Source of the DNA: Erythrobacter sp. JK5
Lineage (GTDB): Bacteria; Pseudomonadota; Alphaproteobacteria; Sphingomonadales; Sphingomonadaceae
DNA length: 64,000 nt
NCBI RefSeq assembly: GCF_018205975.1
Contig: NZ_CP073577.1
Location: 1,178,001 to 1,242,000, forward strand
Direction of reading: 5' to 3'
Positions 6,191 through 11,877 of the stretch are shown here, piece by piece. Below the pieces are notes generated by a model that saw nothing but the letters and a program-made list of their open reading frames with translations, made no database searches and was not told the DNA's origin. Each line of letters begins with the position of its first letter. The stretch's first letter is position 1. The position numbers and the translations under genes were made by a program.

Positions 6191-7336
6191 TTAGTCGCGA
6201 TCGGCGATCTTCACCAGCCGGTTGGTCAGGACCTCGAGGCCCTCGTTGGAGCCGGTGCGCACGTCGATGTGACCGATCTTCTCGGTCACGCGTTCGAGCG
6301 CTTCGAGTTCCTTCAGGCGCATCAGCACCGGGTTGTCGGCCATCAGCTTCGCGGTGTTGAGCAGGCTGCGGGTCGCAGCCGTTTCTTCACGCCGACGGAT
6401 CAGGTTCGCCTGCGCGACCTTTTCCGCTTCGACCACCCGGTTGATAAGCTCGCGCATCTCGCCCGGAAGGATCACGTCCTTGATGCCGAGTTCGGTCACC
6501 CGAACCCCGATTTCGCCCACTTCCTTGCGGACGTGCGCGACGATTTCGCCGTCGACCTTGACCCGGTCGTTGAGCAGCTCGTCGAGCGTCCGACCCGCCA
6601 CGGCCTCACGGACCGCGAACTGGATCAGCTTGTAGACGTGCCCCTCGTAATCCGGGGTCGACAGCGCCGCCTGTTCGACGCCGGTAACCTGCAGGAACGA
6701 CGTGAGCGTGATCCGCACGGACACACGATCCTTCGTCAGGATTTCCTGCGCGGTCACCTCCATCGGCACCGGGCGGGTGTCGAACGCCATGCTCGTCACC
6801 TTGCGGCCGACCTGCCAGTAACCGTGCTCTCCGGCACCGACAGTCTCGTGCAGCGCGCTATCGAACAGCACGATGGCGCTCTGCGCCTGCCCGACCGACA
6901 CGATCTCGACCGGCGCCGGGATCGGACGCCCGAACACCGTCGCCTGCTTGACCTCGGCCAGAAGCCGCTTGGCAAGCGTCGGCTCGGCTTCGACATCGAT
7001 CGCCTGCACGGTGACTTCGTCGAGAACCTTCCAGACCCGCGCGACGTCGCCCCCGCGCACGATCAGGCTGACCCGCCCGTCGATCCGCACGATCGCGACT
7101 TCGCCGACTGCCGGCGCGACGATCTCGAAATTCGCCTCCGCGAGCTCGGGGTGGCGCTTCTCGATTCCGTCTACCAACGGTGAGTGGCAGGCACCGGTCG
7201 CAGCCACGATATCGAGCTGCATCCGGGAGCTGTTCCACAGCCAGTAGAAGTGACGCCCGGGTTCGAGAACCCGAACGAGGCGGCCATCCTTGACCAGGAG
7301 ACCGCGCTGGTTTTCTGCAATGATGAACCACTTCAT
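6191..7336 (-). CDS. SPFH/band-7 (slipin-like) protein
   Basis: 381-aa protein of the stomatin/slipin superfamily, which organises membrane microdomains or protease complexes. The central part (about 190-330) has the band-7 pattern, including VPMEVTAQEILTKDRVSV, then a charged helical C-terminus (ELINRVVEAEKVAQANLIRRREE). The N-terminus (MKWFIIAENQRG) has no clear membrane anchor, so it may attach peripherally. The ATG at 7336 has AGGAG upstream. Two hairpins lie just before it, at 7357-7379 and about 7382-7399. It is monocistronic between a terminator and a 700-nt spacer. Confidence 0.82.
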   Translation of the reverse strand: MKWFIIAENQRGLLVKDGRLVRVLEPGRHFYWLWNSSRMQLDIVAATGACHSPLVDGIEKRHPELAEANFEIVAPAVGEVAIVRIDGRVSLIVRGGDVARVWKVLDEVTVQAIDVEAEPTLAKRLLAEVKQATVFGRPIPAPVEIVSVGQAQSAIVLFDSALHETVGAGEHGYWQVGRKVTSMAFDTRPVPMEVTAQEILTKDRVSVRITLTSFLQVTGVEQAALSTPDYEGHVYKLIQFAVREAVAGRTLDELLNDRVKVDGEIVAHVRKEVGEIGVRVTELGIKDVILPGEMRELINRVVEAEKVAQANLIRRREETAATRSLLNTAKLMADNPVLMRLKELEALERVTEKIGHIDVRTGSNEGLEVLTNRLVKIADRD

Positions 7337-7770
7337 CTTGCGTCTCCTGTGCTCGCTTTGTCGGGCCCATCCCGACAAGCCTCCCCGATTGGGGGAGCGC
7401 GCGGCTAGACGCGATTCGTTTCAGTTGCAACCGGTTTCTTCGCGATAATCTCCCGATGCCGTAGCGTCCTTGCTGTGATGTGCTCGGGAAATGGGTCGGC
7501 CGGGAGGCAATTCCCCGATACCGCGCCGGGCCCTCGGTTAAGGCAGACAGGCCCGGTTTCCGCTGCGCCCGCGTCCATGCCGCCGTAGCGAACATGCCGG
7601 TGGGCACCGCGTCATCGGGTGCCATGCCTGCCGGTATCCCCGAGAGCGCGAAGGCTCGATACCGGTGCCTTGGTCGCTTGGCTCGCCGAGCCCGAAGACC
7701 CGGCTCGCCGCGCTTCCGCGGCTGGATTGCCCGCCCGGCCTTCCCGTGCTCGAGAAGCCGTGTAAGGGCC

Positions 7771-7841
7771 GTTTGGTGCGGGAGTCGAACCCGCGACTCG
7801 TAGATTATCAGTCTACTGCTCTCCCACTGAGCTAACCAATG
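7771..7841 (-). tRNA. tRNA-Ile(GAT)-like element, probably degenerate
   Basis: The D-arm (GCTC/GAGC), anticodon arm (GTAGA, loop CTGATAA, TCTAC; anticodon GAT at 7807-7809), 5-nt variable loop and T-arm (GCGGG, TTCGACT, CCCGC) are all canonical. The acceptor pairs only five of seven positions (CATTGGT with ACCAAAC) and no CCA follows it. An ACCA occurs instead directly after the T-stem. The 5' end overlaps the neighbouring tRNA-like element. It could be a pseudogene, an atypical tRNA or another structured RNA. Confidence 0.5.
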
Positions 7842-7927
7842 GTGCTGGATTCGAACCAGCAGGGCTTGCGCCGTTCCCATGGAGACGATTTTGAGTCGTC
7901 GCTTGGACCTGAACCAAGTGCCTTGCA
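7840..7927 (-). other. tRNA-Leu(CAA)-like element, degenerate
   Basis: The minus strand shows a D-stem CTTG/CAAG with a nine-base loop, an anticodon arm GACGA-CTCAAAA-TCGTC (anticodon CAA at 7891-7893), a variable arm GGC-GCAA-GCC as in class II tRNAs, and a perfect T-arm GCTGG-TTCGAAT-CCAGC. No seven-base acceptor can be paired. ACCA follows the T-stem directly and runs into the 5' end of the Ile-like element. A complete tRNA-Leu(CAA) exists at 1715-1799, so this copy looks redundant. Confidence 0.4.
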
Positions 7928-8049
7928 GGGCAGCCTTCACCGGGAACACACACATGGCAGAGCCACAGCGCGCCCTGCGGCTCGCAATACCGCTGGCGAA
8001 GGGCCGCGCGGTTAGGCGCATCACTGGGTCGTGTAAAGCCCTTGCGGGT

Positions 8050-8502
8050 TCAGCCGCGCCTGGTCAGGCGGCGGATGATCCCGGTAAAGCTCAGCGCCGG
8101 TTCGCCATCGGCGGTCACCAGCCCACGCACGAAGATCGTCTTGCCGCCCCCGCGTGTAACCTCGCCGCGGGCCTCGACCAGCGCGCCTGCGGCGACCGCG
8201 CCCAGGAAATCGCCCGACAAGTTCATCGTTACCGCGTTGTCGCCGGCGAGTGCGTCGGTCGCGATTGCGAACAACGCGAAATCGGCGAAGGTCAGCAGGC
8301 ACCCGCCATGCATGAACCCCGCGCCGTTCATGTGATGCTCCGCTGCGCGAAAAGCGCACACGAAATCCCCGTTATCCTCTCGCCGGGTGAAGAACGGGCC
8401 GGAGCGGTTTTCATAGGGATCGTGATTCCAGAAACGCCATCCCGCAAATTCGCCGTCGTGCGCCTCGACCGCATTGCCGTAACCGTATTCGGTTTCACTC
8501 AT
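8050..8502 (-). CDS. PaaI-type hotdog thioesterase
   Basis: 150-aa acyl-CoA thioesterase-like protein. The hotdog core is seen in HHMNGAGFMHGGCLLTFADF (catalytic HGG-type motif) and the following NLSGDFLGAVAAGALVEARG strand region. The ATG at 8502 overlaps the stop of the serine hydrolase (ATGA), so translation is likely coupled. It is the last gene of the tkt-gap-pgk run. The substrate is unknown; the family usually handles aromatic or medium-chain acyl-CoA. Confidence 0.85.
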   Translation of the reverse strand: MSETEYGYGNAVEAHDGEFAGWRFWNHDPYENRSGPFFTRREDNGDFVCAFRAAEHHMNGAGFMHGGCLLTFADFALFAIATDALAGDNAVTMNLSGDFLGAVAAGALVEARGEVTRGGGKTIFVRGLVTADGEPALSFTGIIRRLTRRG

Positions 8503-9583
8503 TGTGCGAACTGCTCCAGAAACCGCAACGCGATCGGGCTTTCGACGATCTCGGCCTTGACCAGCGAATTGCTCCACCACACCGCCTCGGTGTTCGCCAG
8601 CACGATCAGCGTCAGCCGCTTTTGCGGGACCTTGAGGTACAGCGCCGAGTACTGCTTCTCGTTCCAGCCCGAATGCCACATCAACCGCTGATCGTTCCAG
8701 TCTTCGAGGAACCAACCGTCGCGGTAGTCGCCCAGCGGTCCGACCGGCGTGGCGATCAGGTCCGCGGTCCCCGCAAACATGCCCGAATCGAATGCGATAT
8801 CGAACTGGGCGATGGCTCGCGGGCTGGCGATGATTCCGGCCGCTGCGCGGAAGTCGTCGTCAGGAAGCGGTTGCTTGACTGCACGGCCATCGACAACATC
8901 AAACGGTTCGGCGAGGTATCGCAGTGCCGCACCGCCATCAGGATCGCGCCAGCCCAGGGCGGTATCCTTCATGCCGGCAGGGTCCGCGACCCTGTCGCGC
9001 ACGATCGTGCGCAAATCCCGTCCCCCGCTCCCGAAATCGCGCGGTCGATCCGGGCGAAGGCAATGGGATTGTAGACGAACGCATCGCCGTTCACCCGCAT
9101 GTCGAGCATGTCGCGCAGCGTCGATGGCTTGCTGCACGCCATCGGTGCGATGGCATTGCCGTGACGGTCCTTTCCGCCCGCCATAAAGGGAATACCGGTG
9201 GTTACGAAGAACTCGCACAGGTCGGTCCAGCCTTGGTCTGAAGTCATCGGTATCGCGAGGTCGATGCCGCCCGCTGCCGCTTCGGCGAGGATCGCGCTCG
9301 CCGCGATCGGCTTGGTCACCGATGCGATCTTGTAGGTGGTTTCGGCGCGCGTCGGCAATTCACCTTCGTCGTCATAGGTTCCCAGGTACGTTTCCCATGC
9401 GATCCCGCCATCCCTGACGATGACGGCACTGATTGCCGGTGTGCCCGTTTCCCTGCGGAACTCCTCGAGAAACGCGCCAAAGCTATCGTAGTCGGCATCC
9501 TCGGCAGCGGCAGGCGCGCCGACCATGGCCGCAGCGAAAGCGGCCAAGGAAGCCAACCGCCGGGCGACAAATCCGATTTTCAC
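8499..9583 (-). CDS. beta-lactamase-fold serine hydrolase, exported (one-base frameshift)
   Basis: Class C beta-lactamase/PBP-like hydrolase. Residues 1-27 are a signal peptide. The SxxK nucleophile motif is SVTK (88-91), the second motif lies at VYNP (170-173) and the HSG triad is in WHSGWNE near the C-terminus. The GTG at 9583 overlaps the upstream stop (GTGA). The frame breaks in the CCCCC run 9022-9026; one extra base joins ISGAG to GRDLRTIVRD and gives 361 aa. The product probably acts in the periplasm on an ester, amide or peptide substrate; the specific target is unknown. Confidence 0.83.
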
Positions 9584-10675: not shown

Positions 10676-11877
10676 TCAAGCGGAGAGCGCGGCGACGCCG
10701 GGCAGGTCCTTGCCCTCCATCCATTCAAGGAAGGCACCGCCAGCAGTTGAAACATAAGTGAATTCGCCCGCTACGCCCGCCTGCGCCAGCGCCGCCACGG
10801 TATCGCCGCCCCCGGCCACGGAGGTCAGCGACCCCTCCTGCGTGAGCGCGGCCGCATGCCGGGCCAGTGCGATGGTTGCGGCGTCGAACGGTTCGGTCTC
10901 GAACGCGCCCAGCGGGCCGTTCCACACCAGCGTGCGGCAGGTCTTGAGCACATCGGCAAGCGCCTCGGTCGCTCCGGGACCGATATCGAGGATCATCTCG
11001 TCCGCGGCGACTTCGTGAACGTTGCAGGTGCGCAGGGACGGCGGGTTGGCGGCGAATTCCTTGGCCACCACCACGTCGTAGGGCAGATGCACGGTGCACC
11101 CGGCATGATCGGCCTGGTCCAAGATGGTCGACGCGGTGTCGGTCAGGTCGTGCTCGCACAGCGACTTGCCGACATCGACTCCGCGCGCGGCGAGGAAAGT
11201 ATTAGCCATGCCCCCCCGATGATGAGGTGCTGGACCTTGGTCACGAGGTTTTCGAGCACAGCAAGCTTGGTCGAGACCTTGGCCCCGCCGACCACGGCGG
11301 CGACCGGCTGCTCGGGATTGCCGAGCGCGGCGTCGAGCGCCTTGAGCTCGGCTTCCATCGCGCGGCCCGCGTAGGCCGGCAGATGGTGCGCCAGCCCCAC
11401 CGTCGTCGCATGGGCGCGGTGCGCGGCGCTGAACGCGTCGTTGACGTAGAAATCGCCATGCGCCGCGATCGCCTTCGCGAGGTTGGGATCGTTGCCTTCT
11501 TCGCCGGGCCAGAACCGGGTATTGTCGAGCAGCCCGATATCGCCCGGGCTCAAGATGCCGATCGATTGTTCGACCACCGGCCCGGCGATTTCGGGCACGA
11601 ACATGAGCTCCTTGCCCAGCACGCCTTCGACATCGCCGACGACCATGCTGGTCGAAAGAACGGACGAACGCTTGCCGCCCGGACGCCCGAAATGCGCCAG
11701 CAGCAGGACTTTCGCGCCTTTCTGCGACAATTCGAGGATGGTCGGCTTGACCGCCTCGACCCGTGTGACATCGCTGGCCGAGCCATCCTTCATAGGAAGG
11801 TTCAGATCGACCCGCACGAGCGCGACCTTGCCGGTCAGGTCGGCGGGGAGATCATCGAGGGTTTTGAAGCTGCTCAT
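10676..11877 (-). CDS. pgk: phosphoglycerate kinase (one-base frameshift)
   Basis: Transfers phosphate from 1,3-bisphosphoglycerate to ADP. The N-domain has [18 protein letters not shown] and [13 protein letters not shown]; the C-domain has [10 protein letters not shown] and [11 protein letters not shown]. Both halves are canonical but lie in different frames. The break is at the seven-C run 11212-11218, where one more base restores IIGGGMANTF and a 400-aa protein, the normal length. Since the gene is normally essential, a sequencing error is far more likely than a pseudogene. Order tkt-gap-pgk is conserved in alphaproteobacteria. Confidence 0.93.

Follow-up and report, generated by a model that had tools for sequence, protein, structure and literature searches.

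The window, a 64,000-nt stretch of the Erythrobacter sp. JK5 chromosome, carries two tRNA-like elements head to tail on the minus strand, in a spacer between housekeeping-type genes where the neighbours are a 4HBT thioesterase gene and an SPFH gene. An initial annotation made from the sequence described them as an Ile(GAT)-like and a Leu(CAA)-like element with good arms but poor acceptor stems, and offered three readings: degenerate members of a tRNA array, an atypical processed RNA, or regulators. The question raised by this locus is what these elements are. The feature is real; it is not a pair of decaying tRNA genes, but both elements are modules of a single conserved RNA of ~520 nt, which bears out the reading as an atypical RNA and takes the place of the one as tRNA-array members.

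The downstream element (element 2; 7773–7839, minus strand) is the better formed. The description as an Ile(GAT)-like element with good arms agrees with ARAGORN, which calls it at 7767–7842 on the minus strand, with the Rfam tRNA model (7773–7839, 56.4 bits) and with the strict module finder used below. The Rfam match spans model positions 3–68 of 71; the outer acceptor pairs are thus absent from the element. Its acceptor consists of five contiguous pairs, TTGGT (7839–7835) with ACCAA (7777–7773), where a functional tRNA would have seven, and this stub runs on into the rest of the RNA. ACCA does follow each T-stem, as had been pointed out (7843–7840 in element 1 and 7777–7774 in element 2), but in element 2 it is the 3′ strand of the five-pair stub, so that the accompanying statement that no acceptor strand lies in between fails for this element. 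The two bases reportedly shared by the elements (7840–7841) overlap only when a 7-bp acceptor is forced on element 2. Because the stub is continuous with the rest of the RNA, maturation or charging as a tRNA is improbable for good modules of this kind, which keep the D, anticodon and T arms.

The proposed Leu(CAA)-like element was missed by ARAGORN, and nothing there reached the Rfam tRNA cut-off; the sole match over most of its length was to tRNA-Sec (15.2 bits, E 5.8). The anticodon arm of the first element at a related locus, L083, reads CACTTGGTTAAGGTCCAAG (CTTGG-TTAAGGT-CCAAG), and the window has the near-identical CACTTGGTTCAGGTCCAAG at the same place (CTTGG-TTCAGGT-CCAAG; 7902–7918, minus strand). 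From this match, the homologous anticodon would be CAG, and what had been taken for the D arm would be the anticodon arm; the Leu(CAA) parse is very likely off, and the anticodon arm of element 1 is probably 7918–7902. This hairpin (helix 6 of the consensus structure described below) is 82% paired and lost from some Erythrobacter copies. Immediately 5′ lies a D-arm-like hairpin, TGCC-CTGCAA-GGCA (7919–7932, minus strand; helix 5, 100% paired, one pair changed on both sides). The hairpin formerly read as the Leu CAA arm, GACGA-CTCAAAA-TCGTC (7884–7900, minus strand), falls inside an enlarged, poorly conserved variable region, of which both sequence and length differ in the Erythrobacter loci L034–L036. 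The T-arm, GCTGG-TTCGAAT-CCAGC (7844–7860, minus strand), from which the ACCA follows, is 100% paired in 6/6 copies (helix 9). Element 1 is a degenerate tRNA-like module beside the good Ile(GAT) module.

We searched 114 Erythrobacter genomes with two queries. A 171-bp query matched in seven genomes, its own included; the relatives comprised one full-length match, three partial ones at 87–93% identity and two confined to tRNA arms. A 521-bp query matched in 28 genomes, in six of them (own included) over nearly the whole length, with an identity of 72–81% in four genomes and, in G119, as two pieces (79 and 85%) flanking a gap; the remaining 22 align at tRNA arms only. In the alignment of the six copies, conserved 5′ and 3′ domains flank the variable tRNA-like part, placing the conserved structured non-coding RNA at 7487–8009 (minus strand), with ends that are approximate since they are drawn from conservation. 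The 5′ domain has the signature GGGCGCG-hairpin-TGTGTTCC (7943–7975, minus strand), recognised by pattern search and by the model R1 described below. Behind the tRNA-like module, a short hairpin (G/AGCC-n7-GGCT; 7755–7770, minus strand; helix 13) has four pairs, 100% paired over the six copies, and a long multi-helix structure, the 3′ domain (7487–7746, minus strand), is defined by helices 14–23 and the alignment. Ahead of the RNA, we recognised by eye a promoter-like block of the vegetative type, TTTACA-17-TAACC (8010–8037, minus strand), of which CTTTAC is identical in 6/6 aligned sequences.

The window copy folds better than 100 out of 100 shuffled sequences (MFE z-score −3.4). The consensus structure of the six copies has 155 pairs, 37 of which show compensatory (two-sided) changes. 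In all, 95.3% of its cells are paired, a level reached by 0/500 shuffles, which ignore relatedness, and falling to 35–47% upon sliding the partners, a control that is inflated because the structure was derived from the same alignment. None of the Rfam 15 families matched the window copy at their cut-offs except tRNA. As for the rapid decay in sister strains, one part of the refutation named by the initial annotation, the RNA is retained in five other Erythrobacter genomes, with the distal module intact in four of them and gone from G119 (locus L037), where a T-arm-like hairpin is present but no tRNA-like module. The four sister copies keep all pairs of the D, anticodon and T stems of the distal module (helices 10–12, 100% paired); both partners have changed in three pairs of the anticodon stem (helix 11) and in two of the T stem (helix 12). 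Those in the anticodon stem are common to G106 and G099, two related copies, and may represent one event or a module swap. The anticodon itself is GAT in the window and in G098, GTT in G121 and TCG in G106 and G099.

We also searched phage and plasmid DNA, where no record covered 80% of either query. With the short query, the best 20 of 98 and the best 20 of 498 records matched in the tRNA part only, 35–47% of the query; with the long query, so did the top 20 out of 87 records and the top 30 out of 497 (11–12%). An origin in a phage or plasmid was accordingly rejected. The 12 non-self matches of a first search for relatives were ordinary Asn, Lys or Thr tRNAs. These data bear on the explanation that two functionless, pseudogenised tRNAs persist in the spacer, possibly left by a mobile element. 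The imperfect acceptors, the weak first element and the sister genome without element 2 would suit such relics, but the arm stems are kept through sequence change, the flanking RNA domains are conserved, a like architecture occurs upstream of SPFH genes throughout the phylum (see below) and no phage or plasmid record reaches 80% coverage of the RNA; this explanation is largely refuted and we consider it extremely improbable.

The gene downstream of the RNA (6191–7336, minus strand) encodes an SPFH/Band-7 protein of the membrane-scaffold type, 381 amino acids long and slipin/HflK-like (PF01145, 1e-27), that is similar to stomatin structures across residues 183–351 (3e-16). It starts 150 nt past the end of the RNA, on the same strand. 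In Erythrobacter, RNA and SPFH gene occur in the identical six of the 114 genomes and are both absent from the other 108 (Fisher p 4e-10); as they are neighbours, they would have been gained or lost as one unit. A scan of named genomes for the protein only yielded 15 SPFH loci, 14 of which have a match to the RNA profile directly upstream (E 2e-164 to 6e-4); four of these 14 sit in the profile itself, which leaves 10/11 for the others. The match is weak in L067, and there is none in L069. Across the class, seven of the 385 genomes searched have the SPFH protein; across Pseudomonadota, 23 of 398 sampled genomes have it at E 1e-45 or better (both figures include JK5).

Such tight coupling could also mean that the RNA is a cis-acting leader, the 5′ untranslated region of the SPFH mRNA, in which the mimics regulate SPFH expression (e.g., by binding a nuclease, a ribosome or a synthetase) and have no role in trans. 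The RNA is upstream and co-directional wherever it is found, and the co-occurrence is 6/6. Between RNA and gene, however, there is a second promoter-like block, TTGCAA-17-TAGCC (7403–7432, minus strand; identified by eye), largely conserved in the six aligned loci, and a multi-domain RNA of 520 nt would be long for a leader; on balance, we hold a purely cis-acting role to be unlikely.

We inspected the upstream sequences of 44 SPFH loci found by means of the protein alone. T-arms are present within 650 nt upstream in 42 of them and on the reverse strand in none (0/44), while shuffled sequences gave 0 in each of 20 rounds (43 loci long enough). The two misses are L096, in which the contig ends 106 nt upstream, and L081, with a partial, more distant SPFH protein. 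Repeats (L068 and L070–L075 except L072) were left out of the 44, which are nevertheless non-independent, comprising six loci from Erythrobacter, three from one other genus, and L063, L065 and L066, which are close together. The Rfam tRNA model matches at cut-off upstream of the SPFH gene in 33 of the 39 loci scanned; L086 and L087 have additional matches at a much greater distance upstream, which look like ordinary tRNAs.

A strict finder, requiring a 4-bp D stem, a 5-bp anticodon stem and a T stem of at least 4 bp and reporting one module per locus, was run on 42 loci (L096 and L081 being outside this set). It recognised 26 modules with 16 different anticodons, and in 25 of these 26 the acceptor has fewer than seven contiguous pairs: 0, 1, 2, 3, 4, 5, 6 and 7 pairs were counted in 1, 1, 2, 4, 10, 5, 2 and 1 modules, respectively. 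The recognised module is the first of two in L061, L086 and L097, and the lone 7-bp acceptor is that of L086; all 23 distal or sole modules thus have fewer than seven contiguous pairs, the one in L094 pairing at 6/7 positions. As a control, 39 other tRNA genes of the JK5 genome were put through the same finder, which recognised 16; 15 of these have seven pairs and one has five. The recurrence of the short acceptor, set against seven pairs in 15/16 genuine tRNAs, identifies it as a trait rather than decay, in keeping with the earlier remark that simple pseudogene decay does not account for the elements.

Whether the modules could be functional or specialised (stress) tRNAs, released from a long precursor, must be weighed here. 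The cloverleaf score of element 2 (56.4 bits) is good, some first elements (L064, L079, L086) do have 7-bp acceptors, and the distal module in L094 comes near. Set against this, the acceptor stub of element 2 runs unbroken into the rest of the RNA and the genome has other genes for tRNA-Ile(GAT), tRNA-Leu(CAA) and tRNA-Leu(CAG), which makes the release of working tRNAs very unlikely.

The case for the whole RNA being homologous between classes depends on its short 5′ domain. Its main pattern, written after viewing the sequences, occurs upstream of 23 of the 44 SPFH genes, alphaproteobacterial and other. We built a model of the 5′ domain (R1) from 15 alphaproteobacterial sequences and tested it against 28 SPFH loci kept out of the training set, with 13 further loci as controls. 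It matched in place in 15 of the 28, mostly weakly (five at E <1e-4 and ten at E 0.03–0.6); three of the five stronger matches are close to the training set and the other two, L098 and L092, are outside Alphaproteobacteria. Elsewhere, R1 gave six out-of-place matches in SPFH loci (E 0.87–4.4) and two in controls (E 0.37 and 4.2). Matches of another profile, A1, in distant loci were mostly on the tRNA-like part and were not counted toward whole-RNA homology.

Side observations were made in individual lineages. In one non-alphaproteobacterial genus, that of G591 (loci L137–L166), the RNA is present in 31 of 91 genomes at 85–100% identity; among the 30 copies that were aligned, 19 have CTG as the distal anticodon, 10 have CGT and one has CCT, all on an invariant stem. 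We do not claim strong diversifying selection on the anticodon within this genus, there being three states in 30 copies and as much variation in other loops. In the myxobacterial (Polyangiaceae) locus L069, where the RNA profile is without match, a T-arm lies ~430 nt ahead of the SPFH gene; CAGGTCCACCA and a stretch like a D-arm come next, an arrangement that resembles a permuted tRNA. In Escherichia coli STEC639, a stretch with a T-arm (L167:5690–5997) adjoins a slipin gene; Rfam gave no match to it up to E 0.5. The copies in E. coli and Citrobacter, as read, have one T-arm only, and neither ARAGORN nor Rfam finds a tRNA in them. At least 80% of the STEC639 query is present in 1,620 of 5,426 complete E. 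coli genomes.

RtcB mends cuts in tRNA, and we sought Rtc genes around the SPFH loci by tblastn with the Rtc proteins of JK5 (from its locus L024). RtcB is found around the SPFH gene in all 14 non-alphaproteobacterial stretches from the phylum search and RtcR in eight of them; in six of these eight, RtcR is divergent and adjoins the RNA, while in L108 and L119 RtcB intervenes. By contrast, RtcB occurs in none of the 29 alphaproteobacterial SPFH stretches (L068 and L104 overlap). L127 gave a weak, partial RtcR-like match, and tblastn found no RtcB in L069. The gene table for Citrobacter freundii, which is incomplete, lists rtcR, slipin and a nucleotidyltransferase but no rtcB, and the likewise incomplete one for E. 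coli STEC639 lists slipin and the nucleotidyltransferase but neither rtcR nor rtcB. A dependence on RtcB in Erythrobacter is not supported: it is present in three of the six SPFH-positive genomes and in 20 of the 108 others (p 0.10). As three of the six do without it, repair by RtcB cannot be obligatory there.

A sigma54-type motif was found ahead of nine of 17 non-alphaproteobacterial units (0.08 expected by shuffling) versus none of 27 alphaproteobacterial ones, L069, L081 and L096 being excluded from both groups; since the pattern was shaped after viewing sites by eye, the count of 9/17 is not blind. A narrower pattern gave two credible sites (L089, L094) and one that looks like chance (L058). 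SPFH-family genes have been connected with rtc genes in other bacteria: mutation of the repressor TrcR, which has a tRNA operon under its control as well, raises the Anabaena slipin alr0740 42-fold along with rtcB (PMC10272220), and the Pseudomonas aeruginosa SPFH gene paFlo8 is placed within the rtc locus (PMC13086221).

JK5 has an Rtc locus of its own, L024 (G000:C1:2588000–2602000; 6705–7294 and flanks), with RtcR, a Ro60-like gene, a Y RNA array, RtcB, RlaP and RtcA. The array comprises four tandem YrlA-like units of 70.6, 35.7, 33.8 and 30.9 bits, one of them above the Rfam cut-off. A search for the TROVE family in 41 genomes gave nothing, but a Pfam scan of L024 detected the vWA domain of Ro60 and, below threshold, TROVE, so that the zero does not mean that Ro60 is absent. 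Some 12 kb away from the RtcB in L024, at G000:C1:2580767–2581792 (minus strand), there is another RtcB relative, matched in two pieces; several other Erythrobacter genomes have similar matches, also in two pieces.

Y RNAs suggest a further interpretation of the window, in which a permuted tRNA mimic of the YrlA type forms across the junction of the two elements, out of T-arm 1, D-arm 2 and a mini-stem ACC-AUU-GGU. The window has a weak YrlA match (25.2 bits over 7861–7818), and Y RNAs are tRNA-like partners of Ro60, another scaffold of Rtc operons, one of which is present elsewhere in this genome. The score is far from the RF02553 cut-off of 69, however; no Ro-binding stem could be discerned by eye, and tandem ordinary tRNAs of the same genome also score ~18–20 bits partially, so that we judge a permuted fold quite unlikely. 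The window RNA has no Ro60/TROVE neighbour, the Ro60-like gene being at the separate locus L024. YrlA and other Y RNAs are nonetheless comparable, as tRNA-mimicking RNAs beside a scaffold protein (Ro60/Rsr) in an Rtc operon; the window RNA has a different protein, shows no Ro stem and keeps the order D-anticodon-T, not T-D. For the tRNA-like domain of YrlA, it has been proposed that it might competitively inhibit an anticodon nuclease (PMC7790460).

Two other known RNAs invite comparison. GOLLD, as described in PMC12286853 and PMC6582537, is also a large, ornate RNA, sometimes with tRNAs in a linker; the window RNA is chromosomal and tied to an SPFH gene, not phage-borne. The Rfam GOLLD model had no match at gathering score in the window, nor up to E 10 in 7400–8200, and a search of 50,697 phage records with the SPFH query L088 at E 1e-10 gave nothing. 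Transfer-messenger RNA likewise has tRNA-like parts within a longer RNA; the window RNA differs by its full anticodon arm, and tmRNA models had no match in 7400–8200 up to E 10.

The nearest precedent is an SPFH/Band-7 module. Burroughs and Aravind, in their 2016 work in Nucleic Acids Res., reportedly predicted a scaffolding role in RNA-repair systems for such modules, paired with “a novel tRNA-like molecule”. The likeness lies in an SPFH protein with a tRNA-like RNA, near RtcB/RtcR outside Alphaproteobacteria, and in the window, too, a tRNA-like element lies beside an SPFH/Band-7 gene; since their abstract reportedly names both partners, the pairing itself is probably of a known kind. Compared with that reported system, the window unit would be set apart by the lack of Rtc neighbours, by an RNA of ~520 nt with further domains and by its stub acceptors. 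Among the papers listed by full-text literature searches, whose coverage leaves out most subscription papers, we recognised none as describing this RNA. What looks new is the unit standing alone in Alphaproteobacteria, the layout of the ~520-nt RNA, its short acceptors and the range of anticodons.

The best explanation we can offer, to which we assign a probability of roughly one half, is that the RNA and the adjacent SPFH protein form a ribonucleoprotein of a tRNA-damage response, in which the mimics serve as bait, sensor or scaffold. Pointing to such a response are the stub-ended mimics, the differing anticodons, the nearby RtcB and the sigma54-type motif outside Alphaproteobacteria; the partnership of RNA and protein is based on conservation of structure, adjacency and co-occurrence, from which we infer that the two bind each other. 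SPFH proteins form rings and other oligomers. The RNA would consist of the conserved 5′ domain, one to three tRNA-like modules and the large 3′ domain; with a protein of this oligomer-forming family it would assemble into the ribonucleoprotein, where the mimics, with anticodons that vary between lineages, could bait or sense anticodon-cleaving nucleases or tRNA-repair enzymes, or give them a place to dock. Across Alphaproteobacteria, Erythrobacter included, this unit would have become, or stayed, independent of Rtc genes.

The copies in G119, E. coli and Citrobacter, which have no full module, imply that an anticodon bait is not essential to the RNA. Moreover, the anticodon loop in the 30 copies of one genus is no more variable than some other loops, which counts against bait. 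A bolder form of the proposal is more doubtful and put forward tentatively: large RNAs of a family that Rfam 15 does not contain may each present one or more interchangeable anticodon-arm baits on stub-ended tRNA scaffolds, carried by an SPFH oligomer, as decoys or fuses that sense or absorb anticodon nucleases, in Alphaproteobacteria without neighbouring Rtc genes and in some Erythrobacter without any RtcB.

With the locus read as modules of one conserved RNA, apparent tRNA relics turn into part of an RNA-protein unit that is widespread but little studied. Should the mimics serve to bait or sense nucleases, this would explain why tRNA-like RNAs are kept beside repair or scaffold proteins (Y RNA with Ro60, tRNA-like RNA with SPFH), and marine bacteria of the Erythrobacter type, in which the unit stands alone, would be a direct test case.

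Elsewhere in the window, the genes for phosphoglycerate kinase and a PF00144 (beta-lactamase-fold) protein (10676–11877 and 8499–9583, minus strand) each appear to be divided between two overlapping open reading frames that do not share a frame, which may reflect sequencing errors or frameshifts.
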